A DNA stretch of 64,000 nucleotides from Sphingomonas baiyangensis. Its GTDB lineage: Bacteria > Pseudomonadota > Alphaproteobacteria > Sphingomonadales > Sphingomonadaceae. Under the pieces are notes generated by a model. It made no database searches and was not told the DNA's origin. It worked only from the letters and a program-made list of their open reading frames with translations. This document shows, in pieces, positions 19,132-57,345 of the stretch; within the stretch, counting starts at the first letter, position 1; each line of letters begins with the position of its first letter. The stretch covers positions 2,547,668-2,611,667 of the forward strand of contig NZ_SWKR01000002.1 of the NCBI RefSeq assembly GCF_005144715.1, in the 5' to 3' direction. The translations under genes and the position numbers were made by a program.

Positions 19132-20325
19132 ATGCGCGAAGCCGCTATCGTTTCCACCGCGCGTACCGGCATCGGCAAGGCCGGGCGCGGCTGGTTCAAT
19201 GCCACCGAAGCGCCGGTGCTGGGCGGGCATGTGCTGCGCTCGGCGATCGAACGTGCGGGTATCGACCCCGCGCGGATCGATGACGTGTTCTTCGGCGCAG
19301 GCAACCAGTGGGGGACGCAGGGGGCCAATCTTGCGCGCATGAGCCTGTTCGCCGCGGGCCTGCCGCAGACGGTGCCGGCGTTCAGCCTCGATCGCAAATG
19401 CGGCTCGGGCCTCAACGCGGTAGCGCTGGCGGCGCGATCGATCATCGCCGGCGATATCGACATGGCATTGGCGGGCGGCATGGAATCGATCAGCCTGACG
19501 ATGAAGGACGCGCCGCGATACGTGAACCAGTCGGTGATCGCCGAAGTGCCGCATGCCTATATGGCGATGATCGAGACCGCCGAGATCGTCGCCGAACGCT
19601 ATGGCATCAGCCGCGAGGCGCAGGATGCGTTCGCCGCGCAGAGCCAGCAGCGGGCCACCGCCGCACGCGACGCCGGCCGCTTCGATGCCGAGATAGCGCC
19701 GATCACCGTCGAGCAGGCGCTGTTCGAGAAGGACGGGACGCCGGCGGGAACGCGCGTGGTGACGGTGACGAGCGACGAGGGCATCCGCGCCGGCACCACC
19801 GCCGAAGTGCTGGGCGGGCTCAAGCCCGTCTGGAAGGACGGGCAGGTGGTGAAGGAGGGCAAGTATGTCACCGCGGGCAATGCCAGCCAGCTGTCGGACG
19901 GCGCCGCCGCGCAGCTGGTGATGGACCGCGCCACTGCCGAGGCCGAGGGGCTGCCGGTGCTCGGCATCTATCGCAGCTTCCAGGTGGCCGGGTGTGCGCC
20001 CGAGGAGATGGGCATCGGCCCCGTCTTCGCGATCCCCAAGCTGCTGGCGAAGGCCGGTCTCTCGATCGACGATATCGGGCTGTGGGAGCTCAACGAGGCG
20101 TTCGCCAGCCAGTGCCTCTATTGCCGCGACCATTTGGGCATCGATCCCGAGCGCTACAATGTCGATGGCGGCGCGATCGCGGTCGGCCATCCCTTCGGCA
20201 TGAGCGGCAGCCGGCTGGTGGGTCATGCGCTGATCGAGGGCAAGCGGCGCGGCGTGCGCTGGGTAGTGGTGTCGATGTGCACGGCGGGCGGCATGGGCGC
20301 GGCGGGGCTGTTCGAGATCGTGTAG
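19132..20325 (+). CDS. Acetyl-CoA acyltransferase (thiolase)
   Basis: Thiolases cleave 3-ketoacyl-CoA with CoA or run the condensation in reverse. The 397-residue protein has nucleophile C90 (DRKCGSGLN), H353 (AVGHPFG) and C383 (VSMCTAGG), all intact. An AAAGGAAG ribosome site precedes ATG 19132. Together with the crotonase upstream it fits fatty-acid or aromatic acyl-CoA degradation; the chain-length preference cannot be read. Confidence 0.93.
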
Positions 20326-20349
20326 GCGAGCGGCTGGCGCTCCCTAGCC

Positions 20350-20485
20350 GTCACCCCGGACTTGTTCCGGGGTCCACGGTGCAGCGGGCGTGGTGGATTT
20401 GGGTCGCGCGCGAGGGTGCAAGCGGCGCTATGACGCTGCCATAGCGCTTCGGGCGCGGTGGACCCCGGAACAAGTCCGGGGTGAC
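20350..20485. repeat. Pair of identical 28-nt palindromic elements in inverted orientation
   Basis: The element at 20350-20377 is the exact reverse complement of that at 20458-20485, 80 bases apart. Each is itself a palindrome (ACCCCGGA/TCCGGGGT arms). Both match the suf-operon copy at 12883-12910 exactly. They fill the gap between the convergent thiolase and dnaE2 genes and could fold into a long hairpin in either transcript, acting as transcript ends; no T-run is present. Confidence 0.85.
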
Positions 20486-20509
20486 GGGAAGCGTTTGCGA
20501 AACGCAGCC

Positions 20510-23500
20510 TCAATGGAAGTCGCGTGATTTCTGGCGGATGGCGTCTTCGGGATCGCAGCCGTCGCGAAAGGCGGGGTGGTAGTGCGAGCGCACGCGCGGC
20601 TTCCATTCGGGATCGCCGCGATCGGGCGATCCGCCGCCGCCGGGGCGCGACAGGCGCGGCATGTCGATGTCGCCGATCGCGTGGAGCATGGGGGTATAGT
20701 CCTCGATCCGGTCGGTGATGACGTGGATCACCTGGCCCTCGCGCTGCACGCGCCCCACTACGCCAATCATCGCCGCCGACATCACGGTGCGGCGCTGCGC
20801 CTCGAACCGGTCGGGCCACAGGATCGCGTTGGCGACGCCGGTTTCGTCCTCGATCGTGATGAACAGCACGCCCTTGGCGCTGCCGGGCTTCTGGCGCACG
20901 AGGATGATGCCTGCCACCTCGACCCGTGCCCCGTCCTTCAGTCGCGCGAGATCGGCGCAGCGTGTGATGCGGCGGCGCGTGAAGGCATCGCGCAGGAAGC
21001 TGAGTGGATGCGCGCGCAGCGATAGCTGGGTGGCGCGGTAATCCTCGACCACTTCGCGCCCGGCGGTCAGCGGATCGAGCGCTACCGCAGGCTCGGCGAG
21101 TTCGGGGGTAAGGCCGCCGGCGCGCGCATCGGCGGCGGCGAACAGCGGCAGCGGCGCGGCACCCAGCCCCTTGATCGCCCAGAGCGCCTGCCGCCGGTCG
21201 AGCCCCAGCGCATGGAAGCCATCGGCGCGCGCGATCTTCTCGAGCGCCGCCAGCGGCACGCCCGAGCGGCGCCACACATCCTCGATCGAGGTGAACGGCG
21301 CCGCGCCGCGCGCCGCGACGATCGCGGCGGCATGGACGTTCGACAGTCCCGCGACGACGCGCAGGCCCAGCCGCAGCGGCAGGTAGCGCTGCCCCGTCTC
21401 CTGCTCGACCAGCGTATCCCAGCGGCTGGCGTTGATGCATACCGGCCGCACCTCGACGCCATGCTCGCGCGCGTCGCGCACGATCTGTGCGGGCGCATAG
21501 AAGCCCATCGGCTGCGCATTGAGCAGTGCCGCGCAGAAGATGTCGGGATGGTGGCACTTCATCCAGCACGAGGCATAGGCGATCTTGGCGAAGCTCGCGG
21601 CGTGGCTTTCGGGAAAGCCGTAGCTGCCGAACCCTTCGATCTGCCTAACCAGCCGGCCGGCGAAGTCGGTGGCGATGCCGTTGGCCTGCATCCCCGCCAC
21701 CAGCTTGTCGCGAAAGCGGCTGACGCCGCCGGTGAACTTGAACGTCGCCATCGCACGGCGCAGCTCGTCGGCCTCGGCGGGGGTGAAGCCGGCACCGACG
21801 ATCGCCACCTTCATCGCCTGTTCCTGGAACAGCGGCACGCCCAGCGTCTGTTCGAGCACATGGCGCAGTGCCTCGTTGGGATATTCGACGCGCTCGCGCC
21901 CTTCGCGGCGCTTGAGATAGGGGTGCACCATGTCGCCCTGGATCGGCCCCGGCCGCACGATCGCCACTTCGATCACCAGATCGTAGAACCGGACGGGCTT
22001 CATGCGCGGCAGCATCGCCATCTGCGCGCGGCTCTCGATCTGGAACACACCCAGCGTATCGGCGCGCTGGATCATCGCGAAGGTCTCGGGATCGTCGGTC
22101 TGCATCTCGGGGCTTGCCATGTCGATGCGCACGCCCTTGTGCGCATCGAGCAGCTCGAAGGCGCGGCGCATGCAGCCCAGCATCCCGAGGCCGAGCACGT
22201 CGACCTTCATGAAGCCCAGTTCCTCGATATCGTCCTTTTCCCATTCGATCACCCAACGGTCTTGCATCGCAGCGGGCTCGACGGGGACGAGATCGGCCAG
22301 CCGGTCGCGCGAGAGCACGAAGCCGCCGGGATGCTGCGACAGATGGCGCGGCGTGCCGATCAGCTCGCGCGCGAGTTCGAGCGTGAGCGCGATGCGCGGG
22401 TCGCCGGCGTCGAGGTTGAGCTGTTCGACATGCTCGGCGGAAACGCCCTGCTCTGACCAGCCCCAGACCTGCCCGGCGAGCGCGCCGGTCATGTCTTCGG
22501 GCAGGCCCAGCGCCTTGCCCACCTCGCGCACCGCGCCGCGTGCGCGGAAGCGGCTGACCACGGCGGTGAGTGCAGCATGATCGTGGCCATAGGTCTGGTA
22601 GATCCACTGGATCACTTCCTCGCGCCGCTCATGCTCGAAATCGACATCGATATCGGGCGGCTCGTTGCGGCTGGGCGAGATGAAGCGCTCGAACAGCAGC
22701 CGGTGCTGGATCGGATCGATCGAGGTGATGCCGAGCACGAAGCAGACCATCGAATTGGCCGCCGACCCGCGACCCTGGCACAATATCTCCTGGCTGCGCG
22801 CGAACTGGACGATCGAATTGACCGTCAGGAAATAGGGCGCGTAGCCCATCGCCTCGATCGCGCGCAGCTCGTATTCGAGCAGGTCGCGATAGGCAGCTGG
22901 AACCGCGCCATCGAAGCGCCGGTCAAGCGCGGCGCGTGACATCGCTTCCAATGCCTGTTGCGGCGTGCGGCCCGACATCACGACCTCGTCGGGATATTGG
23001 TACGAAAGCTCGCGCGGCGTGAAAGTGCAGCGCTCTGCGATCGTGCGCGTGGCGGCGATGGCATCGGGATGGTCGCGAAAGCGCCGCGCCATCTCGTCGG
23101 GCGGCATGAGGTGACGGCCGGCGATGCGCTCGCGCCGGCTGCCCAGATCGTCGATCGTGCATTTGTGGCGGATCGCGGTGAGCACGTCCTGCAAAAGCCG
23201 CCGGTCGGGATGATGATAGAGGATGTCGCCGGTGGCGAGCGGGGCGAGGCCGTGTGCACGCGCGGCGCCGGTCAGCCGGTGCAGCCGCAGCGCATCGTCG
23301 GGCCGGCGTTGCAGCGCCAGCGCGACATGGCCGCGTCCGGCACCGAAGATATCGGCCATCGCGCCGAGCGCGTGGGGATCGCCTTCATCGGCGAGGCCGG
23401 GGACGAGTGCCGCGACCAGCCCATCGGCATGGGCCGCGACATCCTCCCAGTGCAGGAAGCATTGCCCCTTCTCGCCCCGCCGGCGATCAGCGCGCAGCTT

Positions 23501-23800
23501 GCCCGCGGTCAGCAGGCGCGTGAGATTGCTCCAGCCGCCGCGATCCTCGGGCCAGACAAGCAGCGACACGCCATCGACCAGATCGAGCCGGCAGCCCGGG
23601 ATCAGCCGGATCGGCGCGGCCTGTCGAGAGACCTGCTCGGACGCGACCAAAGCGCGCACGATCCCGCCTACCGAATTGCGATCAGTGACGCCGAGCACGT
23701 CGTGGCCCATCAGCGCGGCGGTCGAGAACAGCTCCTCAGGCGATGAGGCGCCGCGCAGGAACGAGAAATGCGTCGTGACACTCAGTTCGGCGTAGCGCAT
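20510..23800 (-). CDS. dnaE2: Error-prone DNA polymerase DnaE2 (ImuC)
   Basis: DnaE2 is the C-family polymerase that performs mutagenic translesion synthesis with ImuA and ImuB. The 1096-residue protein opens with a PHP domain (MRYAELSVTTHFSFLRGASS, GVTDRNSVGG) and has the polymerase core with QGRGSAANSMVCFVLGIT, SRNEPPDIDVDFEHERREEV (catalytic aspartates) and GFMKVDVLGLGMLG, then the helix-hairpin-helix and OB regions. ATG 23800 matches the family start; an ATG at 23824 would overlap imuB. It is last in the imuA-imuB-dnaE2 unit under the LexA box at 26606. Confidence 0.95.
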   Translation of the reverse strand: MRYAELSVTTHFSFLRGASSPEELFSTAALMGHDVLGVTDRNSVGGIVRALVASEQVSRQAAPIRLIPGCRLDLVDGVSLLVWPEDRGGWSNLTRLLTAGKLRADRRRGEKGQCFLHWEDVAAHADGLVAALVPGLADEGDPHALGAMADIFGAGRGHVALALQRRPDDALRLHRLTGAARAHGLAPLATGDILYHHPDRRLLQDVLTAIRHKCTIDDLGSRRERIAGRHLMPPDEMARRFRDHPDAIAATRTIAERCTFTPRELSYQYPDEVVMSGRTPQQALEAMSRAALDRRFDGAVPAAYRDLLEYELRAIEAMGYAPYFLTVNSIVQFARSQEILCQGRGSAANSMVCFVLGITSIDPIQHRLLFERFISPSRNEPPDIDVDFEHERREEVIQWIYQTYGHDHAALTAVVSRFRARGAVREVGKALGLPEDMTGALAGQVWGWSEQGVSAEHVEQLNLDAGDPRIALTLELARELIGTPRHLSQHPGGFVLSRDRLADLVPVEPAAMQDRWVIEWEKDDIEELGFMKVDVLGLGMLGCMRRAFELLDAHKGVRIDMASPEMQTDDPETFAMIQRADTLGVFQIESRAQMAMLPRMKPVRFYDLVIEVAIVRPGPIQGDMVHPYLKRREGRERVEYPNEALRHVLEQTLGVPLFQEQAMKVAIVGAGFTPAEADELRRAMATFKFTGGVSRFRDKLVAGMQANGIATDFAGRLVRQIEGFGSYGFPESHAASFAKIAYASCWMKCHHPDIFCAALLNAQPMGFYAPAQIVRDAREHGVEVRPVCINASRWDTLVEQETGQRYLPLRLGLRVVAGLSNVHAAAIVAARGAAPFTSIEDVWRRSGVPLAALEKIARADGFHALGLDRRQALWAIKGLGAAPLPLFAAADARAGGLTPELAEPAVALDPLTAGREVVEDYRATQLSLRAHPLSFLRDAFTRRRITRCADLARLKDGARVEVAGIILVRQKPGSAKGVLFITIEDETGVANAILWPDRFEAQRRTVMSAAMIGVVGRVQREGQVIHVITDRIEDYTPMLHAIGDIDMPRLSRPGGGGSPDRGDPEWKPRVRSHYHPAFRDGCDPEDAIRQKSRDFH

Positions 23801-23807
23801 CGCGGCT

Positions 23808-25916
23808 TCACCCGAACAGGCCATGGAGCCACCAGCTCAGGTCGCCTGTTGCGGTGCGTTCACCGTCGCCTCGGCGGTATAGCCAGAAGCGGCGGCCGGC
23901 ATCGTCCTCGACGCGAAAATAGTCGCGCACGGCATCGCGCTCGGCGCCGCGGCGCCACCATTCGCCATGGATGCGCTCGGGCCCGTCGGCGCGCGCCACG
24001 CGATAGCTTTTGCCGCGCCATGTGAAGCGCATCGGCGCATGATCGGGCAGCAGCGCCATCACGTCGTCGAGCCGCTCGGGCCGCCTGAGCAGGCGCGGCG
24101 GGCGATGCCAGCGTGGGTGCCATGCGCCGGGCGGCGCGCTGCGATCGAGCCGGCGAACATCGTCGGCATGCAGGCGGGCAGCGGGGGGCGCGGCCGTGTC
24201 GAGTGGCGGGGCCGGGGCGACCGAGCGTTCGGGTACGTCGCTTTCGACCGCGCGGTTACGCCACAGTCGCGCCATGCCGATGCGATTGGCGATGGCATCG
24301 ACCAGGGGCGCCAGATCGGGCGCGGTTTCGGCATCGAGCCGTTCGACCAGTTCCTGCGGCCCGAGCGGCTCGGCACGGCGGACGTGCAGCGCCATCGCGT
24401 CGATGCCGTAGCCGGGTTCAATCTCGTCGATCCGCCGTGCGATCAGTCGCAACAGATGCGCGGGATCGCGGCTGGCGCGCGCCAGACCGATGCGCAGCCG
24501 CTGCGGCACATGATCGACACGCTCGGCCACCAGTTCGACCGCGCGCGCACCCATGCCCTGGGTGGCGAGCGCGGCGCAGAGCTGCGGCACCAGCACGCCC
24601 AGCCAGTGCGCGATCGCCTCGGCAGTGCCGATGGGTTCGAGAAAGCCCTGCCGGCAGAGGATCGCCTCACGCGGGATCACCGGATCGAGCGGTTCGGGCA
24701 GGTGGCCCAGCGCCTGGTCGAGCCGGTGCAGCACGCGGGCGAAGCGCCGCGCGATCGGCGCGCGCGGCATTGCGGCAAGCTGGCCGACATGCTCGACGCC
24801 CAGCCGCCGCAGCAATTCGAGATCGGCGGCATCGGCACGCAGCGCGGCGAGCGGCAGCGGGGCGAGCGCATCGGCCTGCGCGCGCGGCGGCACGATGACG
24901 CTGCCCTGTGCCTCGGCAAGCGACGACGTGGTGGGGCGCGTGCGACGATAGGGGCCTTCGTGGCGCGGATGGCGGATTCGGCCGGTGGGGCGCAGCCCGG
25001 CATGACGCGGCGGCGGCGGATCGAACGCCGCTGCATCGCCGGCGGGCGGCGCGCCGAAATGCGCCAGTGCCCAGGCGGCGCCCGGCGTGTCGGCGATGGC
25101 GATGCGTGCCCGATGCCCAAGCCGCGCCATCAGCCGCACGAGCCGCGCCGCCATCGCCGCCTCGCCGCCGAACAGATGAGCGACGCCGGTGAGATCGATC
25201 AGCAGCGTGTCGTCGCCCTCGACCGCGACGGTAGGACTGAAGCGCCGCGCCAGCGCGATCGCGAGGCGATGCAGCGCGTGCGCGTCACCTTCGGGATCGG
25301 CGGCATGTGCTTCGATCCCCGGCACGCTGGCGCGCGCGGCGGTGAGCGCCATGCCGGGGCGGATGCCCTGCGCGCGTGCCTGCGGACATGCGGCGATGAT
25401 CTCGACGCGCGCGCCGCGCCGTGCGGTGGTGACGCGGAGTGGGGTAAGAGTTTCCGCGACATGCGAGAGATCTCTGCTTTTCGATGCGGGGCCGCACCCA
25501 TCCACCTCCGCCTTCGGCGGCGGTCCCCCTCCCCGTACCGGGGAAGTTTGGGCAGGGCCGCTGGCAGCCTTCAGGCTGAACGGCACGGCGCCGCGTGCCT
25601 CGTCAGGGCGCAGCGCGCGGAAGGGATGGTCGGCGGCTTCGGCGCGGCGGCCGAGCTCGCGCATCGGCGGGCGCTGGTGCGCGGGCATGCGGGCGATCGC
25701 CTCGGCGGTGTCGGCACGCGCCCAGCGCGCGCCGGGACGCCAGCCGGGCGTGTTGGGCACCGAGCATTCGCCCACGCGCTCGGCAGCGACGGCAGCGGCG
25801 AGGCCCGAGGCGTCGATGGGGAGCGCGGCTTCAGGCGGCGCGGGGAGTGGCGTTGCCATGCGCGCCAGCCGTTCGATCGGCCATTGCGGCAGGCAGAGCG
25901 CAGCGACCCGTTTCAT
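23808..25916 (-). CDS. imuB: Mutasome protein ImuB, with an N-terminal insertion
   Basis: ImuB is a catalytically inactive Y-family polymerase relative that bridges DnaE2, ImuA and the beta clamp. The product begins MKRVAALCLPQWPIERLAR and has the family blocks RPGMALTAARASVPGIEAHA, LLIDLTGVAHLFGGEAAM and IADTPGAAWALAHFGAPPAG. At 702 residues it is clearly longer than usual ImuB (about 500). Most extra length lies at residues about 20-175, between the first strand and the finger region. Part of this insert (residues about 118-145, SPVRGGGPPPKAEVDG) is the translation of a dispersed palindromic repeat. Its start overlaps imuA by 86 bases. Confidence 0.9.
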   Translation of the reverse strand: MKRVAALCLPQWPIERLARMATPLPAPPEAALPIDASGLAAAVAAERVGECSVPNTPGWRPGARWARADTAEAIARMPAHQRPPMRELGRRAEAADHPFRALRPDEARGAVPFSLKAASGPAQTSPVRGGGPPPKAEVDGCGPASKSRDLSHVAETLTPLRVTTARRGARVEIIAACPQARAQGIRPGMALTAARASVPGIEAHAADPEGDAHALHRLAIALARRFSPTVAVEGDDTLLIDLTGVAHLFGGEAAMAARLVRLMARLGHRARIAIADTPGAAWALAHFGAPPAGDAAAFDPPPPRHAGLRPTGRIRHPRHEGPYRRTRPTTSSLAEAQGSVIVPPRAQADALAPLPLAALRADAADLELLRRLGVEHVGQLAAMPRAPIARRFARVLHRLDQALGHLPEPLDPVIPREAILCRQGFLEPIGTAEAIAHWLGVLVPQLCAALATQGMGARAVELVAERVDHVPQRLRIGLARASRDPAHLLRLIARRIDEIEPGYGIDAMALHVRRAEPLGPQELVERLDAETAPDLAPLVDAIANRIGMARLWRNRAVESDVPERSVAPAPPLDTAAPPAARLHADDVRRLDRSAPPGAWHPRWHRPPRLLRRPERLDDVMALLPDHAPMRFTWRGKSYRVARADGPERIHGEWWRRGAERDAVRDYFRVEDDAGRRFWLYRRGDGERTATGDLSWWLHGLFG
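25521..25544. repeat. Dispersed palindromic repeat inside imuB
   Basis: The 24 bases here match 23 of 24 bases at 35471-35494 inside glyS. The core is a CCCCGTACCGGGG palindrome preceded by CGGTCCCCCT. It lies in the imuB reading frame without breaking it. Confidence 0.8.
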
Positions 25917-26583
25917 CGCAAGCCTCCATGATCCATTCGCCCGTCTCGCCGCCGCGCTGCCGGGCAAGCGCCACGCGCCAGCGTGGCCGGCCGACGCCCG
26001 CCACACCGCGCGGCAGCGGCGTCGAAGGTGCGCAGCCGATGCGCCAGCGCGTGATCGCCGCCGAAGGGACGGCAAGCGGATCGCCATCCACGCGGCCATG
26101 GCGCTTGAGCATCAGCGCGATCGTGCGCCCACCTTCGGCGGCCAGTTGCAGGCGGCGCGTGGCGGGCATCGCGACGCGCTTGGCCTCGCCGATCACCGCG
26201 CCCAGCCCACGGTGGCGCAATCCCTCCTCCATCAGTGCCAGCACCTCGGCATCGTCGGCGGCCTCGGCATGGATGACACGCTCGGGCGAGAGCCCCGCCT
26301 GCATCAGTCCCGGCGCGAACAGGTCGCGCCGCCGCACCACCCACAGCACCGGCCCCCAGGCGCGTGCGGCGATACCGGCGAGGAACAGCGTGGCGGCGGC
26401 ATCGTCGCTGAGGTCGGCGCTTTCGCCGGCCACTTCGTGCAACGCATCGAGCCGGAGGCCGCCAGCCGCCAGCCGCGCATCGACCGCGCCCAGCCCGAAC
26501 GGCAGCGCGGGGCGGCGGCGGAAACCGCTTCCCTCTATGGCGCTCAGCGTTTCGCGCAGGGCAGACAGGCGTTGGGCGGACAT
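25831..26583 (-). CDS. imuA: Mutasome protein ImuA (RecA-like)
   Basis: ImuA is a RecA/SulA-related protein needed for DnaE2-dependent mutagenesis. The 250-residue protein starts MSAQRLSALRETLSAIEG, then PALPFGLGAVDARLAAGGLR and LHEVAGESAD, the usual ImuA opening that replaces the RecA P-loop region. The last 28 codons overlap the start of imuB in another frame, a long overlap, but no earlier stop occurs. It is the first gene after the LexA box. Confidence 0.88.
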   Translation of the reverse strand: MSAQRLSALRETLSAIEGSGFRRRPALPFGLGAVDARLAAGGLRLDALHEVAGESADLSDDAAATLFLAGIAARAWGPVLWVVRRRDLFAPGLMQAGLSPERVIHAEAADDAEVLALMEEGLRHRGLGAVIGEAKRVAMPATRRLQLAAEGGRTIALMLKRHGRVDGDPLAVPSAAITRWRIGCAPSTPLPRGVAGVGRPRWRVALARQRGGETGEWIMEACDETGRCALPAAMADRTAGAHGNATPRAA

Positions 26584-26605
26584 TACGACTCGATCGAACC
26601 AGAAT

Positions 26606-26620
26606 GTTCCTATTCTGTTC
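26606..26620 (-). promoter_or_regulatory. LexA box (SOS operator) for imuA-imuB-dnaE2
   Basis: GTTC-CTATTCT-GTTC matches the alphaproteobacterial LexA operator GTTC-N7-GTTC exactly. It lies 23 bases upstream of the imuA ATG, where a bound repressor would block the promoter. An additional GAAC half-site is at 26596-26599. The cassette is therefore expected to be induced by DNA damage. Confidence 0.88.
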
Positions 26621-26749
26621 CATGCGAGTGCAGAGTCAATGCCCGGCTTTGGCGGGGGTCTGGTAATTACATTTGAAACTTTATAACAGACTCCCAACGC
26701 GACTCCGGGCGTTGTCCCCGATACCGAGCGCGGCGATCTGGAGAGTGCA

Positions 26750-28045
26750 TTGACCGGCGACACGCACGCCAACCGGCCCAAATTGACGCTGCACGTGCCC
26801 GAGCCCAAGTTCCGGCCGGGCGACAAGGCCGACTTCAGCGATGTGGAGGTGCCGCCCGCCGGCGCCGCCCGCCGGCCCGAACACGGCGACGCAGCCGCAA
26901 GTTTCCACGAGCTTGCCTATGGCATGGTTCGCGTGCTCGACGATGCGGGCCGCGCGGTCGGTCCCTGGGCGCCGCGCCTGTCGCCCGATCGGTTGCGCCA
27001 GATGCTGCGCTACATGGTCACGCTGCGCGCATTCGACGAACGCATGTTCCGCGCCCAGCGCCAAGGCAAGACCAGCTTCTACATGAAGGCGACCGGCGAG
27101 GAGGCGGTGGCCGTCGCGGCGACCATGGCGTTGCAGCGCGACGACATGACCTTTCCCAGCTATCGCCAGCAGGGCATCCTCATCGCGCGCGACTGGTCGC
27201 TGGTCGACATGATGAACCAGATCTATTCGAATCGCGGCGACCGCCTGCAGGGCAAGCAGCTGCCGATCATGTATTCGACCAAGGAAGGCGCGTTCTTCTC
27301 GATCTCGGGCAACCTCGCCACGCAATATCCGCAGGCGGTGGGCTGGGCGATGGCGTCGGCGGCCAAGGGCGACAGCCGCATCGCGGCAGTCTGGTGCGGC
27401 GAGGGATCGACCGCCGAGGGCGATTTCCATTCGGCCTGCACCTTCGCCAGCGTCTATCGTGCGCCCGTCATCCTCAACGTCGTCAACAACCAGTGGGCGA
27501 TCTCGAGCTTTTCGGGCTTTGCGGGGGCCGAGGCGACGACCTTCGCGGCGCGCGCGGTAGGCTATGGCATCGCCGGGCTGCGCATCGACGGCAACGATGC
27601 GCTCGCCGTCTATGCCGCCACCGAATGGGCCGCCGAGCGCGCGCGCACCAACCAGGGGCCGACGCTGATCGAGCATTTCACCTATCGCGCCGAGGGCCAT
27701 TCGACGTCGGACGATCCCTCGCAATATCGCTCGGCCGACGAGGCGAGCGAATGGCCGCTCGGCGATCCCGTCCGGCGGCTGCGCGATCACCTGATCGCGA
27801 TCGGCGAATGGGATGACGAGCGCCACAAGGCGCAGGATCTGGAAATCGCCGAGATGGTGAAGAAGGCGCAGAAGGAAGCCGAGGCCAACGGCATCCTCGG
27901 CCATGGCCTGCACCAGCCGCTCGACACACTGTTCGAGGGCGTGTTCGAGGAAATGCCATGGCATTTGCGCGAGCAGCAGGCGCAGATGCTTGCCGAGGAA
28001 GCCGAGAGCGGCCGCCCCTGGGCGCGCAAGGAGGGCGGGCGATGA
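26750..28045 (+). CDS. 2-oxoisovalerate-type dehydrogenase E1 component, alpha subunit
   Basis: E1alpha, with E1beta, decarboxylates branched-chain 2-oxo acids using thiamine diphosphate. The 431-residue sequence has the ThDP-binding GEGSTAEGDFHSACTFAS...NNQWAIS pattern and the phosphorylation-loop-like YRAEGHSTSDDPSQYR. The start is TTG 26750, preceded by GGAGAG; the next in-frame ATG would cut conserved sequence. E1beta overlaps by 4 bases and E2 follows, giving the E1a-E1b-E2 order of bkd operons. No E3 gene is in the window. Confidence 0.92.
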   Translation: MTGDTHANRPKLTLHVPEPKFRPGDKADFSDVEVPPAGAARRPEHGDAAASFHELAYGMVRVLDDAGRAVGPWAPRLSPDRLRQMLRYMVTLRAFDERMFRAQRQGKTSFYMKATGEEAVAVAATMALQRDDMTFPSYRQQGILIARDWSLVDMMNQIYSNRGDRLQGKQLPIMYSTKEGAFFSISGNLATQYPQAVGWAMASAAKGDSRIAAVWCGEGSTAEGDFHSACTFASVYRAPVILNVVNNQWAISSFSGFAGAEATTFAARAVGYGIAGLRIDGNDALAVYAATEWAAERARTNQGPTLIEHFTYRAEGHSTSDDPSQYRSADEASEWPLGDPVRRLRDHLIAIGEWDDERHKAQDLEIAEMVKKAQKEAEANGILGHGLHQPLDTLFEGVFEEMPWHLREQQAQMLAEEAESGRPWARKEGGR

Positions 28046-29103
28046 GCGAAATGATCGAGGCGCCCGCCATCGCCGACGAGGCCGGCGCAAGCGTCCAGAT
28101 GAACATGATCCAGGCGATCAATTCGGCGATGGACGTGATGATGGCGCGCGACGCCGACGTCGTCGTGATGGGCGAGGATGTCGGCTATTTCGGCGGCGTG
28201 TTCCGCGCCACCGCGGGCCTGCAGAAGAAGTTCGGCAAGACGCGCGTGTTCGATACGCCGATCACCGAATGCGGCATCATCGGCGTGGCGGTGGGCATGG
28301 GTGCCTATGGCCTGCGCCCGGTGCCCGAAATCCAGTTCGCCGATTACATCTATCCCGCGCTCGACCAGCTCGTGTCCGAAGCTGCGCGGCTGCGCTATCG
28401 CTCGGCGGGCGAGTTCACCGCGCCGATCACCGTGCGTTCGCCCTTCGGCGGCGGCATCTTCGGCGGGCAGACGCATTCGCAGTCGCCCGAGGGTATCTTC
28501 ACGCATGTCTCGGGCATCAAGACGGTGATCCCCGCGACGCCCTATGACGCCAAGGGCCTGCTGATCGCCGCGATCGAGGACAACGACCCCGTGTTGTTCT
28601 TCGAGCCCAAGCGCATCTACAATGGCCCTTTCGACGGCCAGTGGGATGGGCCCGCCAAGAGCTGGGCGGGCCACAAGGCCGCACAGGTGCCCGAAGGCTA
28701 TTACCGCATCCCGCTCGGCAAGGCTTCGATCGTGCGCGAAGGCGGCGACGTCACCATTCTTGCCTATGGCACGATGGTGCATGTCGCGCTGGCGGTGGTC
28801 GAGGCGGCGGGCGTCGATGCCGAGGTGATCGACCTGCGCACGCTGGTGCCGCTCGACATCGAGACGATCGAGGCATCGGTGAAGAAGACCGGCCGCTGCA
28901 TGATCGTCCACGAAGCGACGCGCACCGCGGGCTTCGGCGCCGAATTGTCGGCACTGGTGCAGGAACGCTGCTTCCACCATCTCGAAGCGCCGATCGAGCG
29001 CGTGACGGGCTTCGACACGCCCTATCCGCACAGCCTCGAATGGGCGTATTTCCCCGGCCCGGTGCGCATCGGCATGGCGCTCAAGAAGATCATGAAGGAC
29101 TGA
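28042..29103 (+). CDS. 2-oxoisovalerate-type dehydrogenase E1 component, beta subunit
   Basis: This 353-residue transketolase-like subunit completes the E1 active site. Conserved blocks are VVVMGEDVGYFGGVFRATAG, FDTPITECGIIGVAVGMGAY, FGGGIFGGQTHSQSPEGIF and the C-terminal RVTGFDTPYPHSLEWAYFPG. ATG 28042 overlaps the E1alpha stop, consistent with 1:1 synthesis of the two subunits. E2 begins 7 bases after its stop. Confidence 0.94.
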   Translation: MSEMIEAPAIADEAGASVQMNMIQAINSAMDVMMARDADVVVMGEDVGYFGGVFRATAGLQKKFGKTRVFDTPITECGIIGVAVGMGAYGLRPVPEIQFADYIYPALDQLVSEAARLRYRSAGEFTAPITVRSPFGGGIFGGQTHSQSPEGIFTHVSGIKTVIPATPYDAKGLLIAAIEDNDPVLFFEPKRIYNGPFDGQWDGPAKSWAGHKAAQVPEGYYRIPLGKASIVREGGDVTILAYGTMVHVALAVVEAAGVDAEVIDLRTLVPLDIETIEASVKKTGRCMIVHEATRTAGFGAELSALVQERCFHHLEAPIERVTGFDTPYPHSLEWAYFPGPVRIGMALKKIMKD

Positions 29104-29110
29104 CCGGCAC

Positions 29111-30385
29111 ATGGCTCTGTTCAAGTTCCGCCTGCCCGATATCGGCGAAGGCATCTCCGAAGCCGAGATCGTCGCGTGGCACGTCAAGGTGGGCGACCGT
29201 GTCGAGGAGGACCAGCAGCTCGCCGACATGATGACCGACAAGGCGACCGTCGAGATGGAGTCGCCGGTATCGGGCGTGGTGGTCGAGCTGGCGGGCGAAG
29301 TCGGCGATCAGGTGCCGATCGGATCGACGCTGGCGGTCATCGAGGTCGAGGGTGATGATGCGGCGGACACCGCCGATGCCGAACCCGAGGTCGAGGAGCA
29401 GATCGAGGCCGAGACGCCGGGCGTGGATGAGGTAACCGAGCCACCCGTTGCCGCTCCTACGGCGCCGGCAAAGTCTGCCGCGCCTGCGCCCGAGGCATCG
29501 TCGCCGCCAGTTGACGAACCTGCCGTTCGTGTCACCGCATCGCCGGCAGTGCGCGCGCGGGCCAAGGCGCTGGGCGTCGATCTGGCGCAAGTGAAGGCCG
29601 ATGGCGCGCATGTCCGTCATGCCGATCTCGATGCGTATCTGCGCTATGGCGCGAGCGAGGGCTATCATGCGCCGCACGCCCGCCGGGCGCGGGCCGACGA
29701 GACGGTGAAGGTCATCGGCATGCGCCGCCGCATCGCCGAGAACATGGCGGCCTCCAAGCGCAACATCCCGCATTTCACCTATGTCGACGAAATCGACGTG
29801 ACCGCGCTCGAGGCGATGCGCGGCGACCTCAATGCCAATCGCGGTCAGCGTCCCAAGCTGACGATGCTGCCGTTCCTGATCGTCGCGATCTGCCGGACGC
29901 TGCCCGATTTCCCGATGCTCAACGCCCGCTATGACGACGAGGCCGGCGTGGTGACGCGCAGTGGCGCGGTGCATCTGGGCATGGCAACGCAGACTGATGC
30001 CGGGCTGATGGTGCCCGTCATCCGCGACGCGCAGGACCGCAACATCTGGCAGCTCGCCAGCGAGATCACGCGGCTGGCCGAGGCGGCACGCACCGGCAAG
30101 GCGAAGTCCGACGAGCTTTCGGGATCGACGATCACCGTCACCTCGCTGGGTCCGCTCGGCGGCATCGCGACCACGCCGGTCATTAACCGGCCCGAGGTAG
30201 CGATCCTGGGTCCGAACAAGATCGTCGAGCGGCCGGTATTTTCGGGCGACGACATCGTCCGCGCCAAGCTGATGAATTTCTCGATCAGCTGCGACCACCG
30301 CGTCGTCGATGGCTGGGATGCAGCCAGCTTCGTCGCCGCACTCAAGAAGCTGGTCGAAACGCCGGTGCTGCTGTTCGCCGACTAA
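29111..30385 (+). CDS. Branched-chain 2-oxoacid dehydrogenase E2 (dihydrolipoyl acyltransferase)
   Basis: E2 is the core that moves the acyl group from lipoate to CoA. The 424 residues hold one lipoyl domain (1-80, lipoyl lysine K44 in MTDKATVEMES), an acidic and Ala/Pro linker, an E3/E1-binding domain (about 138-178, ASPAVRARAKALGVDLAQVK), and the catalytic domain with active-site H396 and D400 in SCDHRVVDGWDAA. All key residues are present. Its 3' end overlaps the convergent bioY frame by 44 bases. Confidence 0.94.
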   Translation: MALFKFRLPDIGEGISEAEIVAWHVKVGDRVEEDQQLADMMTDKATVEMESPVSGVVVELAGEVGDQVPIGSTLAVIEVEGDDAADTADAEPEVEEQIEAETPGVDEVTEPPVAAPTAPAKSAAPAPEASSPPVDEPAVRVTASPAVRARAKALGVDLAQVKADGAHVRHADLDAYLRYGASEGYHAPHARRARADETVKVIGMRRRIAENMAASKRNIPHFTYVDEIDVTALEAMRGDLNANRGQRPKLTMLPFLIVAICRTLPDFPMLNARYDDEAGVVTRSGAVHLGMATQTDAGLMVPVIRDAQDRNIWQLASEITRLAEAARTGKAKSDELSGSTITVTSLGPLGGIATTPVINRPEVAILGPNKIVERPVFSGDDIVRAKLMNFSISCDHRVVDGWDAASFVAALKKLVETPVLLFAD

Positions 30386-30842
30386 GCAGCAACAGGATGC
30401 CCGCGCCCGCCGCCGATTTGGCGAGCGCGCCGGGCAGGAAGGGCAGCACGCCGCTTGCGATCGCCGCTTTGGCGCTGATAGCGGCGGCGAGCCACAGGCC
30501 GCCGAGCGCCAGGCACAGCGCGTTGGCTGCCAGCATCAGCCCGAGGGCGCGGCCGGGGCGCGCCGCCCATCCGCGTGCAGCGAGCCGGCCGACCAGCCAT
30601 GCCGCCATCGGAAACGCAGCAAGGTAGCCGCCGCCCGGCCCGGTGAAGCGTGCAATGCCCGATGCGCCCTCGGCCAGCACCGGCGCGCCGAGTGCGCCCG
30701 CCGCCAGCCACGCGAGCACCGCCGCGGTGCCGAGGCGGGCGCCGAGCAGCGCGCCGATGAGCGGGACGACGAGCGTTTGCAGCGTGATCGGCACCGGCTG
30801 CATCGGAATCGCGACGTACGAGGCGAGTACCAGCGCCATCAT
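30342..30842 (-). CDS. bioY: Biotin transporter BioY
   Basis: BioY is the substrate-binding membrane component of biotin uptake. The sequence contains the family hallmark IPMQPVPITLQTLVVPLIGALLG in pieces, followed by five further hydrophobic segments and GPGGGYLAAFPMAAWLVGRL. ATG 30842 gives 166 residues and would trim the first helix. The frame is open upstream and a CTG at 30890, overlapping the previous stop as CTGA, would give the usual length of about 183. The start is therefore uncertain. It follows ppdK and a 62-aa gene, and converges with E2. Confidence 0.82.
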   Translation of the reverse strand: MMALVLASYVAIPMQPVPITLQTLVVPLIGALLGARLGTAAVLAWLAAGALGAPVLAEGASGIARFTGPGGGYLAAFPMAAWLVGRLAARGWAARPGRALGLMLAANALCLALGGLWLAAAISAKAAIASGVLPFLPGALAKSAAGAGILLLLSRRTAAPAFRPAS

Positions 30843-30886
30843 GGCGACGAGCAGCGCGCCTACCCGCCGCGCCGGCGTGGCGAGCG

Positions 30887-31071
30887 TCAGAACGGCAGGA
30901 TTTCCGGCCCGCCGGGCCAGATCCAGTCCTCGGTCCAGTCGGCGCCGGCGAGCAGCGTCGTGATGATCGCCCCCAGCAGCAGCAGGTCGAACAGCGCCAC
31001 CGCCGCGAAGGTCCAATAGGGATGCAGCCCGGCGATCCGGTCCATGCCGCCGCGCGTCAACCTGTCGCCGC

Positions 31072-31075
<4 letters not shown>
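30887..31075 (-). CDS. 62-residue single-pass membrane protein
   Basis: The product has one hydrophobic helix (about residues 23-43, FAAVALFDLLLLGAIITTLL) and a tryptophan-rich end (DWTEDWIWPGGPEILPF). Its ATG overlaps the ppdK stop (ATGA at 31072-31075), so it is probably translated by coupling to ppdK. No family is recognised. It lies between ppdK and bioY in one transcription unit. Confidence 0.65.
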
Positions 31076-33738
<2,663 letters not shown>

Positions 33739-33813
33739 GCTGGTCCCTCGATCGGCTGGAAGTTCACACAAGTTCACGCGCTATGCGCGGGCGCGGCGGG
33801 TGAACGACGGCGA

Positions 33814-36345
33814 TCACCCTTCAATCCGCGAGAAATCGGCCACGCTGTGCACGGCGGCGCGCACGCGGGCGAGCAGCGCGAGGCGCGCCTGGCGCTTCGC
33901 CGGATCGGCATCGTTGACGGTCACGCTTTCAAAGAACGCATCGATCGGCGCGCGCAAGCCCGCGAGCGCCGCCATCGCCGCTTCGAAATCCTCATCCGCC
34001 ACCGCTTGCGCGGCAGCGGGTTCGGCAGCGTCGAGCGCGGCGACAAGATCGGTTTCGGCCTTTTCGGGCGTGTAGGACAGCGAATTCTGCGCCGAGGCGC
34101 CGCCGGGGCTACCGGGCGCGTGCTCGGAAGCCGCGAAGGCGGCGACGACGGGCGCGAAGCCGCGATCGGTATCGACCTCGACCAGCGGGTCTTCCTCGCC
34201 GGTCTGGGGGATGCCGGCGCCGTCGCGATCGATCGCATGGATGCGCTGTTCGGCGGGCGTGCGCGGGGATTCGGTGCCGAACGGCTCGGACGCGGCGGCG
34301 GCTGCGTCCAGCGTGGCGGGGGGTTCCGCTCGCTCGCCGGCCGACGCTGCTTGTGGCGCGGTGGACCCCGGCACGAGGCCGGGGTGACGAGGTGGGGTTT
34401 CGCCGACGCCTTCCTTCTTGAGGATGTTGGCGGCGCGCTTGTAGCCCGCGAGCAGGTTGGCGCCCTCGGGCGTGGTGACGAACGCCTGAAGCGCATGGAC
34501 GCGCGCGAGCAGGCGGACGAGATCGTCCTCGCCACCGAGCGCGAACACGGCGTCGATCAGGTCATGGCGGACGCCGGCTTCGCGCTGCTGGACTTTGAGG
34601 CGGTCGGCGAAGAACCGTGCCAGATTTTGCTCAGTCTCGCCGAAGAAAATCTTCTCGAACTTTGCGAGATCGTCCTCGCAGGCCGCAAGCAACGCCCGCT
34701 CCAAACGAAAGCGTAGCGATTTGCGCACGACAATCGCGATTACGGCCAAGGCGGCACGGCGAAGCGCGAACGGGTCTTTCGAACCCGTCGGCGGCATATT
34801 CTCGATATAAAACTGAACAATTGTATCCAGCTTGTCCGCCAGCGATACCGCCACCGTTACCGGCGCCGTCGGTACTTCATCGTCCTGCCCAACCGGCTTG
34901 TAGTGATCGCGCACCGCTTCCCACACCTCTGTGGGCTCGCCCTGGGCGCGGGCGTAATAGCCGCCCATCAGGCCCTGCAATTCGGGGAACTCGCCCACCA
35001 TGCCAGTGACGAGATCGGCCTTGGCGAGCCGCGCGGCGCGTTCGGCCATGTCGGCCAAATCTCCCCTCCCTGGAAGGGAGGGGTTGGGGGTGGGTTGGAC
35101 CTTCGAGGCACGGTCTTGAGCGCCATCACCCACCCCCGGCCCCTCCCTTCCAGGGAGGGGGGCAGCAGGAACGATCCCCTCCTCCACCAGCCAGCGCGCG
35201 AGTTTGGCCACGCGCTCGACCTTGTCGGCGACGGTGCCGAGCTTTTCGTGGAAGACGATCTTTTCGAGCTTCTTCGCCTGCTCGTCGAGCGGCAGCTTGA
35301 GGTCGGTATCGTAGAAGAAGCGCGCGTCGCTGAGGCGGGCGGCCAGTACCTTCTGGTTGCCGGCGACGATCTTCGCGCCGCCGTCCTTCGCATCGATATT
35401 GGCGACGCAGATGAAGGCGTTGGTCAACTGCCGCGCGCGCGCTACCCCTCCACCATCCGGCTGCGCCGGACGGTCCCCCTCCCCGTTCCGGGGAGATGTT
35501 TCGAGGACGAAATATTTCTGGTTCACGCGTGCGGTGAGCTGGATCACCTCGGGGGGCACGCTGAGGAAGCCGGGGTCGAAGCGGCCGAGGAGCGGCACCG
35601 GCCATTCGGTGAGGCCGGCATTCTCGGCGACGAGTCCCTCGTCCTCGACCAGTGTCAGGCCGGCATCGGCGGCGAGCGCCGTGGCGCGCTCGCGGATCAA
35701 GGCGCGGCGTTCGTCCTGATCGACGATGACGTGGCATGCGCGCAGCTTTTCGACATAGTCGTGCGCGCCGCCCAGCGTGATCGGGCCGGGCGCGTGGAAG
35801 CGGTGGCCGAGCGTGGCGTAGCCGCTTTCGATGCCGGCGATCTCGCAGGGCACCAGTTTCTCGCCGAAGATCGCGACGATGCCCTGGAGCGGGCGCACCC
35901 AGCGCATGCTCTCGGTCGAGCGCGAGGCATCGCCCCAGCGCATCGACTTGGGCCAGGGGAAGGCGCGGACGATCGCGGGGATCGCGGCGGCGAGCACGTC
36001 ACCCGTCGCGCGGCCGGGCTTTTCGGTGACGGCGAACCAGATGCCGTCGCGCTCGGTCAAGGCGTCGCGGGCAAGGCCGGTCTTGCGCAGGAAGCCTTCG
36101 AGCGCCGCCTCGGGTGCCGAGGTGCGCGGGCCCTTCATTTCCTCGCGCACCGCCTCGGTCGCCTGTGGCAGGCCGCGTGCGATCAGCGCCAGCCGGCGCG
36201 GGGTGGCGTAGGTGACGATCCCGGCGGCGGCGATGCCGGCCTTCGCCAGCTCGGCGACGAACAGCTTTTCGAGATCGGCGCGCGCGCGGTCCTGCATGCG
36301 CGCGGGGATTTCCTCCGATCGCAGCTCGAGCAGGAAATCGGTCAC
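33814..36345 (-). CDS. glyS: Glycyl-tRNA synthetase beta subunit, expanded by repeat insertions
   Basis: GlyS and GlyQ form the alpha2beta2 enzyme that charges tRNA-Gly. The product starts [20 protein letters not shown] and ends with the anticodon-binding-type region [19 protein letters not shown]...[18 protein letters not shown]. Start is GTG 36345, overlapping the glyQ stop (GTGA). At 843 residues it exceeds the usual 690-700. The excess sits in three in-frame insertions made of dispersed repeats: residues about 284-305, about 393-430 and about 650-755. The last is a low-complexity A/E/P-rich linker opening [12 protein letters not shown]. The frame stays open, so the protein is probably functional with surface loops. 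Confidence 0.92.
34361..34388. repeat. 28-nt palindromic element inside glyS (third insertion)
   Basis: This copy differs from the identical intergenic copies at 12883-12910 and 20458-20485 in only three central bases. Read on the minus strand in the glyS frame it encodes HPGLVPGST, residues about 653-662. Confidence 0.85.
35063..35160. repeat. 32-nt inverted repeat pair inside glyS (second insertion)
   Basis: The arm at 35063-35094 pairs with 35129-35160 at 30 of 32 positions. Each arm holds a CCCTCCCTGGAAGGGAGGG-type palindrome. The pair encodes glyS residues about 396-428 ([15 protein letters not shown] and [12 protein letters not shown]). Confidence 0.85.
35471..35494. repeat. Dispersed palindromic repeat inside glyS (first insertion)
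   Basis: Twenty-three of 24 bases match the copy inside imuB at 25521-25544. On the minus strand it encodes [10 protein letters not shown] in the glyS frame, residues about 285-293. Confidence 0.85.
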
Positions 36346-37241
36346 AGCGACCACTCCGGGAAACGCGCCTGCCATTCGGGCGTCATCCGCTCGATCTGCT
36401 TGGCGCACGCGCCCTTCGCCAGATCGCGCACGCGGCCCATATAGGCCTGCCGCTCGGCGACCGAGATGACGCCGCGTGCCTGCAACAGGTTGAACACATG
36501 GCTGGCCTTCACCGCCTGCTCATAGGCGGGGATGGGCAGGTCGGCGGCCAAGCTGTTCTCGCACTCGGCGGCGTGCTTCCTGAACTGGTCAAACAGTCGA
36601 TCGGTATCGGCGACCTCGAAATTCCAGGCCGACATCTGGCGTTCGTTCTCGAGGAATACCTCGCCGTACGTCACGCCCTCGTCGTTGAAGGCGAGATCGT
36701 ACACGCTGTCGACATTCTGGATGTACATCGCCAGCCGTTCGAGCCCGTAGGTGAGCTCGCCCGCCACGGGCTTGCAATCGAACCCGCCCATCTGCTGGAA
36801 ATAGGTGAACTGCGTGACTTCCATGCCGTCGCACCACACTTCCCAGCCGAGGCCCCAGGCACCCAATGTGGGCGATTCCCAATCATCCTCGACGAAGCGG
36901 ATGTCGTGCGCCAGCATGTCGATGCCGATCGCGGCGAGGCTGCCCAGATATTGCTCCTGCAGGTCGGCGGGCGAGGGCTTCAGGATCACCTGATACTGGT
37001 AGTAATGCTGGAGCCGGTTGGGGTTCTCGCCATAGCGGCCGTCGGTGGGGCGGCGGCAGGGCTGGACGAAGGCGGCGTTCCACGGCTGCGGCCCCAGCGC
37101 GCGCAGCGTAGTGGCGGTGTGGAAGGTGCCGGCGCCCATCTCGAGGTCATAGGGTTGCAGGATCAGGCAGCCGCGCGCGCTCCAGTAATCGTGGAGCGTC
37201 AGGATCATGCGCTGGAAGCTCATCGGAGCGGGAGTGGACAC
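36342..37241 (-). CDS. glyQ: Glycyl-tRNA synthetase alpha subunit
   Basis: GlyQ carries the class II catalytic core of the two-subunit glycyl-tRNA synthetase. The 299-residue sequence has [40 protein letters not shown] and the motif [20 protein letters not shown], as in the family (about 290-300 residues). Start is GTG 37241; an ATG at 37223 is possible. It overlaps glyS by 4 bases. An 8-bp hairpin lies just upstream (37259-37279). Confidence 0.96.
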
Positions 37242-37258
37242 CGTCGCAGCCTTCGCGT

Positions 37259-37279
37259 GTGCGGGAGAAAATCCCGCAC
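37259..37279. other. Perfect 8-bp hairpin upstream of glyQ
   Basis: GTGCGGGA (37259-37266) and TCCCGCAC (37272-37279) flank a 5-base loop, 18 bases before the glyQ start codon. There is no T-run on either side, so it is not a standard terminator. It lies in the divergent region between glyQ and the TraB-family gene and could be a 5' UTR structure or an operator. Confidence 0.5.
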
Positions 37280-37356
37280 CCCTTGGCGCAGCGTCGCGGG
37301 GGGGTCAATGGCGCGGCCTTTCGACAAGCCGGCGCTTTGCGCTATCGCGGGCGGCG

Positions 37357-38235
37357 ATGCTGCGCCTCGCCCTCCTTGCGCTTGCCGCCCTCGCGCTTGC
37401 CAGCCCCGTCGCCCCGCGCGAGCCGCAGCCGGCGACCCCGCCCCTGTGGGTGGTGCGCGATGCCGACACGGTGATCTGGCTGTTCGGCAGCGTCCACTGG
37501 CTCAAACCCGAACTCGGCTGGTTCGACGCGCGCGTGCGCGCCGCCTTCGATGCCGCCGACACGCTGGTGCTCGAGACGCCGCCCGCCGACCCGGCCGTGG
37601 CGCGGCGCGTGCAGGATGCCATCGGCAAGACCAGCGAGGGCCCGACGCTGCCCGAGCGGCTGCCGCCGGGCTATGCCGCGAAACTCGCGACGGCGCTCGC
37701 CGAACTCGGCTATCCTGAAGGCGCGTTCGACCGGGTGAAGCCGTGGCTGGCCGCGACGACGCTGTCGGTGCTGCCGCTCCGGCGGCAGGGCTATGACCCG
37801 CGCGAAGGGGTGGAGGCAGTGCTCACCGATGCCGCGCGGCGCGCGGGCAAGCCGATCATCGGCCTCGAGCCGCGCGCCGAGCAGCTCGGCTATTTCGACG
37901 ATTTGCCCGAGGAAGTGCAGATGGCGATGCTGACGCGCCAGCTCGACAATCTGGATGCGGCGACCGAATCGACCGATCGCGTGCTTGCCGCCTGGGTGGC
38001 GGGCGACGCGGCGGTGCTCGGCGCACTGGTCGACGACGACCAGCGCCAATCCTCGGCGGCGTTCACCGAGACAATCCTGACGCGCCGCAACGCGCGCTGG
38101 GCGGCATGGATAAAGGCGCGGCTGGCGCAGCCCGGGCAGGTGTTCATGGCGGTGGGGGTCGGCCATCTGACGGGGCGCGATACGGTACAGCGCGCGCTCG
38201 CGCGGCGCGGCGTGCGCATGGCGCGCGTGCAGTGA
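37357..38235 (+). CDS. TraB/GumN family protein
   Basis: The 292-residue protein starts with a signal peptide (LRLALLALAALALASPVAP) and then shows the TraB/GumN pattern: WVVRDADTVIWLFGSVHWLK near the N terminus and VFMAVGVGHLTGRDTVQRAL near the C terminus, the two conserved GxxH stretches. Family members are suspected metal-dependent proteases (Tiki-like) but bacterial roles are not settled. It is probably periplasmic. The DUF485-actP pair follows after 31 bases. Confidence 0.85.
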   Translation: MLRLALLALAALALASPVAPREPQPATPPLWVVRDADTVIWLFGSVHWLKPELGWFDARVRAAFDAADTLVLETPPADPAVARRVQDAIGKTSEGPTLPERLPPGYAAKLATALAELGYPEGAFDRVKPWLAATTLSVLPLRRQGYDPREGVEAVLTDAARRAGKPIIGLEPRAEQLGYFDDLPEEVQMAMLTRQLDNLDAATESTDRVLAAWVAGDAAVLGALVDDDQRQSSAAFTETILTRRNARWAAWIKARLAQPGQVFMAVGVGHLTGRDTVQRALARRGVRMARVQ

Positions 38236-57198: not shown

Positions 57199-57259
57199 GC
57201 CCCGACTGTTAGGGAGCAAGAGGCGGCGTGGGAAGGCGAAAGCGGTGGCGAAGGTTCGC

Positions 57260-57337
57260 GTCACCCCAGCGAAAGCTGGGGTCTTGTACCGCGAAAGTGC
57301 GCTTGCGGCTCGAGACCCCAGCTTTCGCTGGGGTGAC
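57260..57337. repeat. Exact 25-bp inverted repeat (palindromic element pair)
   Basis: 57260-57284 is the exact reverse complement of 57313-57337, with 28 bases between. Each arm is also a palindrome around CCCCAGC...GCTGGGG. It fills the gap between glpX and the GST gene, both on the minus strand, and could form a long stem in a joint transcript. Confidence 0.85.
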
Positions 57338-57345
57338 GATCATGG

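Follow-up and report, generated by a model that had tools for sequence, protein, structure and literature searches.

Our analysis shows that the imuB gene of Sphingomonas baiyangensis contains, in frame and within a part encoding a low-confidence linker of the protein, one copy of a short palindromic repeat of the REP (repetitive extragenic palindromic) kind, designated here family A. REP-type repeats recur within imuB of the relatives: inverted repeats or family-A matches were found in this gene at 27 of the 44 clade loci among the best 80 of 577 confirmed places, and at 28 of 45 when the single copy of the window is added. The window is the whole stretch of DNA that was analyzed (64,000 nucleotides); L and G numbers denote loci and genomes, and the principal features are listed in Table 1. 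The imuB repeat feature is real, recurrent, well defined and ordinary in kind, and is most likely neutral; it very probably represents a tolerated in-frame insertion of a REP-like element into a flexible ImuB linker.

Table 1. Coordinates of the features discussed in the text (positions in the window).
Feature	Position	Strand	Description
dnaE2	20510..23824	-	Error-prone polymerase, downstream of imuB; 1314.5 bits
imuB	23808..25916	-	702 aa; Y-family homologue with IMS, IMS_C and DUF6504 matches
Second, older insert in imuB	24912..25046	-	Residues ~291-335; low confidence; common to S. spermidinifaciens
Family-A two-hairpin palindromic element in imuB	25496..25546	+	51 bp; encodes residues 124-141 (TSPVRGGGPPPKAEVDGC)
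Conserved sphingomonad ImuB segment	25632..25766	-	Residues 51-95, C..GWRPGARWAR..HQRPPMRELGRRAEAA
imuA-like gene	25831..26583	-	Upstream of imuB; 51 bits to NF033429, below the cut-off of 150
Third palindromic repeat in glyS	34349..34402		Residues 648-666; CGTC-like
Second palindromic pair in glyS, CCCCTCCCTGGAAGGGAGGGG family	35063..35160		Residues 396-428
Family-A element in glyS	35444..35496	+	Encodes residues 284-301

The Family-A Element

In the collected copies, a family-A unit is 46–53 bp long and consists of ACCCCTCCACC, a variable stem-loop and then GGTCCCCCTCCCCGTNCCGGGGAGG. The alignment contains 25 rows, two of the 27 collected copies having been excluded for their deviating ends. 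With the imuB stretch as the query, 22 matches (itself included) were revealed in the S. baiyangensis genome. The covariance model of the family recovered the imuB copy with an E-value of 3.2e-14 and gave 34 matches at E ≤ 0.01 in this genome, possibly a lower bound, as 150 of 4713 candidates were scored. Family A was present in all 14 genus genomes searched, with 1 to 136 matches in each of the other 13, and three genomes of other genera gave 0, 2 (weak) and 0 matches (150 candidates scored per genome). Six strong copies were found in the 464 kb formed by the window and 20 stretches of 20 kb.

The covariation score of the alignment was 0.217 versus 0.072 ± 0.011 after shuffling, above all 500 shuffles, and slid controls gave 0.036–0.072. 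The proportion of paired cells (91.5% vs. 82.0 ± 1.0) and the number of cells with a double-sided change (36 vs. 13.2 ± 2.3) also exceeded the shuffled values. The double changes were confined to the first helix, the second stem being barely variable. Two measures did not rise above the shuffles: pairs changed on both sides (6 vs. 4.9, with 89 of the 500 shuffles reaching 6) and further pair types (11 vs. 12.0). The first stem of family A is maintained by compensatory change. Among the 23 own-genome copies listed, three inverted pairs were spaced by 76–82 bp, one inverted pair by 395 bp, and one pair was direct; one of the inverted pairs folds as a single long hairpin. With its many genomic copies, compensated stem and frequent inverted pairs, family A is REP-like. 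By inspection, it does not have the characters of the CGTC REP superfamily (an unpaired CGTC tag, a stem of 8–9 bp starting from A-T, and a CCA tail), whereas CGTCATCCC..GATCCA is present in other repeats that lie in relatives' imuB genes (e.g., those of L135 and L163). Identity with a known Rfam RNA was rejected, there being 0 matches at gathering scores at positions 20000–38000 of the window.

All six reading frames are open in 24 of the 25 aligned copies, and five in the remaining one, so translation can continue through an insertion if its length is suitable. Over 22 copies, five of the six possible settings of strand and phase were used; as strand and phase vary, the encoded peptides vary between species.

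Host Genes of Family A in S. baiyangensis

The first-pass annotation had linked the repeat of imuB to one in glyS, and this link was borne out. Positions 25521–25544 and 35471–35494 (glyS) are equal at 23 of 24 bases, and nothing elsewhere in the window reaches 19 of 24. Both stretches lie inside one element type of 51–53 bp. The imuB repeat belongs to the glyS repeat family and is in frame in both genes.

In the S. baiyangensis genome, family A occurs within ligD, metH, murD, truB, glyS and imuB. The products LigD, MetH, MurD, TruB and GlyS match their own profiles, and the element lies between or beside the domains with the frame kept. The codon score over 28 family-A copies was by itself too weak for gene calling, and the named genes are those confirmed by profile matches; three other open reading frames spanning family A (L083, L077 and L064) had no profile match.

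The gene glyS (33814–36345), coding for the beta subunit of glycyl-tRNA synthetase, carries three in-frame palindromic repeats from three families, of which the third reads CGTCACCCCGG..CCGGGGTCCA on the coding strand. Elsewhere in the window, positions 57259–57338 hold an inverted repeat of 34 nt with a 12-nt spacer, starting with CGTCACCCC, which is probably another REP dimer, and a long run of degenerate direct repeats at ~41700–54500 perhaps encodes a large repetitive surface protein.

The imuB Cassette and the N-Terminal Linker of ImuB

The cassette comprises a protein with the Y-family fold, an adjoining DnaE2 and an upstream gene with a sub-cut-off ImuA match. The listed fold matches of the AlphaFold model of ImuB (47 aligned sequences, mean pLDDT 74.2, pTM 0.54) are Y-family polymerases. 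Neither dnaE2 nor the imuA-like gene of the window contains a family-A match. A second ImuB is encoded in the S. baiyangensis genome (C2:1845617-1847422; L050); it is shorter, carries the conserved segment described below and has no family-A match.

An insert of about 150 residues, predicted to be disordered and encoded in part by the repeat, had been proposed in the first-pass annotation for the N-terminal region of ImuB. We found about 140 residues between residue 21 and the strand starting at residue 161, and much of this linker has a pLDDT below 50, i.e., low model confidence (residues 28–36, 49–65, 89–103, 106–133 and 135–155); further on, the same holds for residues 294–310, 312–335, 521–531, 560–564 and 591–607. 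The repeat is part of the insert, as claimed, but only residues 124–141 come from the element. Positions 25480–25860, which encode residues 19–146, are mostly a lineage feature that is also found in relatives without the family-A repeat; more distant ImuBs (e.g., L033) have only a short link from the first strand/helix to the second strand.

The conserved segment of the insert is N-terminal to the repeat-encoded residues, and relatives have the segment without the repeat. Across 14 genus ImuBs of two paralogous types, C51, R60-P61-G62-A63, W65-A66, H80, P83, R86, G89-R90, E93 and A95 are invariant. Of 82 rows (the best 80 of 577 loci plus the two ImuBs of the window's genome), a sample selected by similarity, 78 have Trp65 and 65 have E93; the segment is missing from more distant ImuBs, both of the order and of the genus. 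S. spermidinifaciens L112, whose row is closest to the window's ImuB in the tree, has the segment and continues into the next strand, the family-A element being absent. Since the segment is broadly conserved and L112 has the insert without the element, we infer that the insert is a lineage feature to which the repeat was added later; an origin of the whole insert from the repeat was rejected on the same grounds. As one part of what would speak against its proposal, the first-pass annotation named the presence of the insert without the repeat in most relatives, and this was largely the case in the present sample. A family-A match in imuB was found at 13 of the 44 clade loci (best 80 of 577), at L179 outside the clade, in G004 and in the window.

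No good Pfam match was obtained for the segment, and one of ten sequences scanned singly gave a weak match (E 0.022). Searched alone against 289 class genomes, with at most 22 candidates scored per genome, it gave two matches (its own genome, and a weak one with a stop), and none in the genus genome G010 or in two genomes of the same family. In sphingomonad ImuBs the segment (C..GWRPGARWAR..HQRPPMRELGRRSEAA) shows strong conservation; it looks like a possible binding motif and may interact with a binding partner. A second linker block, roughly IRYPGxGPHPDK..GSNDAGA..FFDTGR..TVARVC, was observed in the ImuBs of L039 and L041–L046; it is absent from the window's ImuB.

The older insert at residues ~291–335 is possibly, and we state this tentatively, a decayed CGTC-type REP dimer. 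A search with positions 24896–25060 gave no DNA repeat match (40 of 177 candidates scored), so the suggestion of a REP origin comes from position and a weak resemblance. Clear REP-type inserts occupy the same loop in four relatives (L117, L119, L133 and L174).

Recurrence of Repeats in imuB

The locus set comprises the best 80 of 577 confirmed places, with distant ImuBs under-sampled; counts out of 44 refer to its clade loci and counts out of 45 to these plus the window. Several loci lie on contigs that also belong to G genomes (e.g., L135/G023, L163/G002 and L145/G009). In the tree, the ImuB core of L120 is identical to that of L128; L123 is a near-copy of L125. Contig ends truncate L128 and L174, and some residues close to the start of L133 are unread. 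Inverted repeats were scanned with a score of at least 17 and a loop of at most 160, and genes were called by codon score.

In the 80-locus set, 28 inverted repeats were found over 161,121 bp of imuB (0.174 per kb), 16 over 1,068,606 bp of other called genes (0.015 per kb) and 53 over 406,163 bp of intergenic DNA (0.13 per kb). The density in imuB is thus about 12 times that in other genes and similar to that of intergenic DNA. When the 44 clade imuBs were codon-shuffled, 0–1 inverted repeats per set were obtained in 20 sets, as against the 28 observed. At the clade loci, 23 of the 55 family-A matches lie inside imuB, though this gene makes up 10.5% of the bases, and ten of the 44 clade loci have an inverted family-A pair in imuB; G004 also has such a pair elsewhere in the gene. 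Seventeen of the 45 clade imuBs have neither an inverted repeat nor a family-A match. On the tree, the inverted-repeat label changed at least 14 times, and at least 11 of these changes are forced by starred branches.

Among the other 36 loci of this set, no inverted repeat was found in imuB, and the only family-A copy in the gene was that of Sphingosinicella terrae L179. The resulting contrast (28 of 45 in the clade vs. 1 of 37) is weak and confounded, because family-A matches number one in the 713 kb of these 36 loci and 55 in the 923 kb of the clade loci. The long inverted repeat of L116 lies in the ImuB core and was counted as chance: it is within the 28 inverted repeats and outside the 22 of 44 given below, and L116 enters the 27 of 44 through its family-A pair in imuB. 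An inverted repeat of L122 outside ImuB also looks like chance. The contig of L184 is labeled Arthrobacter sp. TPD3018; its ImuB falls among sphingomonad ones in the tree, and the label is probably wrong.

Insertion Sites and Decay

Three parts of ImuB were found to receive inserts. One is the N-terminal stretch that precedes C51, another extends from motif 2 as far as residue 160, and the last is the loop after GAAWALARF (~291–335). All three are covered by stretches with a pLDDT below 50 in the window's model, although a low score is to be expected for inserted residues in any case. No inserts were seen at the low-confidence stretches 521–531, 560–564 and 591–607. Several clade members (e.g., L114, L119, L120 and L122) do not have the HQRPPMREL part, and a repeat stands in its place. 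The linker reaches 401 residues in the clade versus at most 41 in 37 other rows (best 80 of 577 plus the window's two), these lengths being approximate because only the window's row has a residue in the right-hand anchor column.

A CGTC-type dimer in the linker of six close relatives is intact in some of them and mutated in others; at the same place, L144 has one arm left and L187 has extra copies. That the hairpin is lost while the gene stays agrees more with a tolerated insertion in decay than with a conserved function.

Other Genes Hit and Spared

Two further genes were repeatedly struck in the best 80 of 577 loci. With the L116 core match omitted, inverted repeats were present in imuB at 22 of 44 clade loci, in the gene for the dihydrolipoyl acyltransferase E2 of pyruvate dehydrogenase at nine of 32, and in dnaE2, identified by similarity, in six of 44 clade genes and none of 36 others. 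The similarity-based count gave 45 imuB-like genes, 23 of them with a repeat, the difference being one extra gene and the L116 core match; dnaE2 defined by adjacency to imuB gave three inverted repeats in 61 genes, some having been dropped by the distance and length limits. At the same clade loci, inverted repeats were absent from imuA (0 of 35), E1 alpha (0 of 32) and E1 beta (0 of 32), and genes without a match in the window had one in 1 of 428 cases.

The inserts of E2 (L118, L119, L124, L126, L134, L143, L146, L150 and L154) follow a PGVEE-type linker and precede VLASPAVRARA, i.e., they lie between the lipoyl and E3-binding domains. Those of dnaE2 (L124, L133, L136, L148, L163 and L187) share a single loop between WDT and LPLRLG. 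The density of inverted repeats at the clade loci is 0.224 per kb in E2 versus 0.286 per kb in imuB; a metabolic gene struck at nearly the density of imuB, with imuA, E1 alpha and E1 beta spared, favors tolerance rather than targeting. A repair-linked bias is possible, since imuB is hit more often than E2 and two of the three struck genes belong to one SOS cassette.

Probable Origin and Possible Effects of the Insertion

In the reading that we consider very probable, the imuB element would be one copy of a non-coding REP-like repeat, mobile or formerly mobile, that entered in frame where a flexible link joins the first strand/helix of the ImuB palm to its second strand. Its survival would be explained by the lack of a stop codon in any frame and by the tolerance of the link for added residues. 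ImuB would have been struck repeatedly because it offers three tolerant places, namely the main linker, the residues preceding C51 and the loop at ~291–335. The predicted peptide is probably neutral and would decay over time.

An alternative is that the REP-encoded peptides alter ImuB, and also DnaE2, tuning their contacts or activity, and were selected for changed mutability. The recurrence of insertions in imuB and dnaE2 agrees with such selection, and DnaE2 is listed along with further repair genes as REP-tagged by Di Nocera et al. (2013; PMC3733652), who suggest mutator effects. However, the different families, strands and phases yield different peptides, the copies decay in close relatives, and the metabolic E2 is struck at a similar density. 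In addition, the regions of ImuB in contact with ImuA/RecA, DnaE2 and the clamp lie in its C-terminal part in the systems described in PMC6511836, and the N-terminal linker with the repeat is far from them in sequence. We therefore consider selection for changed mutability unlikely, and the altered clamp or DnaE2 contacts suggested in the first-pass annotation are unsupported; an effect of the repeat on the mutasome is possible. Also improbable is the broader proposal that most of the growth of the Sphingomonas ImuB linker came from REPs that repeatedly inserted in frame, duplicated and decayed, and that this growth tunes mutasome assembly and hence the SOS mutation rate of each species.

Action at the level of nucleic acid, in which a hairpin in mRNA or DNA would tune the translation, stability or transcription of imuB and dnaE2, is quite unlikely. 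The hairpins are stable, with DNA folding z-scores of -2.55 to -3.73 for three single family-A copies or strands and of -10.7 for one pair, and REPs are often held to act as RNA elements (PMC3733652). Nevertheless, hairpin arms are mutated or lost at the same place in close relatives, the repeat-free imuBs by either test amount to 17 of 45 in the clade (best 80 of 577), and the position of the repeat within the gene varies.

It is very unlikely that insertion targets SOS-induced or otherwise exposed DNA, the imuB-dnaE2 operon being preferred rather than tolerant. The shared SOS cassette of two of the three struck genes would fit such targeting; imuA, which adjoins imuB, is nevertheless spared, E2 is struck but its neighbors E1 alpha and E1 beta are not, and family A also lies in ligD, metH, murD, truB and glyS of the S. 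baiyangensis genome. Finally, chance likeness was rejected: a GC content of 68% makes short hairpins common, but the 34 genome matches, the E-value of the imuB copy, a covariation above every shuffle and the contrast with codon-shuffled genes argue against it.

Comparison With Known Systems

Palindromic elements that lie in frame within genes of functional proteins are known from Rickettsia (RPEs), and family A resembles them in this respect; RPEs are 105–146 bp long, and family A is ~51 bp. REPINs pair with RAYT transposases. In this they differ from family A, since no RAYT gene (Y1_Tnp, PF01797) was matched in the S. baiyangensis genome, with five of 14 control genomes positive, and two of 21 genus genomes have one; a RAYT driver defined by PF01797 was rejected on these counts. 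REPINs (PMC3116915) and family A are alike in having paired inverted REPs able to form one long hairpin.

In-frame insertion of REPs is a known kind of event. GTAG and CGTC REPs have been described inside many genes, DnaE2 among them, REP-tagged TruB and tRNA synthetase genes have been reported with S. alaskensis among the hosts, and CGTC REPs have no dedicated transposase (Di Nocera et al., 2013; PMC3733652). Family A shares with the intragenic REPs of that study short palindromes, often in inverted dimers, inside open reading frames; unlike them, it has no CGTC or GTAG tag and consists of two hairpins. ImuB and “dihydrolipo” are absent from the main text of that paper, and ImuB may be in its supplementary gene list. 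Our literature searches returned nothing on REPs together with ImuB, or on intragenic REPs in Sphingomonas; the records found for ImuB with Sphingomonas concern the conifer needle microbiome and a radiation-resistant Knollia species. As far as these searches go, the additions made here are ImuB as a sink for repeats, the comparison of struck and spared genes, and family A itself.

Both readings of intragenic REPs, as neutral flexible linkers or loops and as a source of altered mutability, were already raised in 2013 (PMC3733652). Beyond that work, our analysis provides the recurrence by clade, the density in comparison with other genes and a decay series, and it thereby offers a comparative case for the question posed then, whether REPs single out repair genes or merely survive in flexible linkers. 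It also shows how an interdomain linker can grow in frame through selfish repeats.
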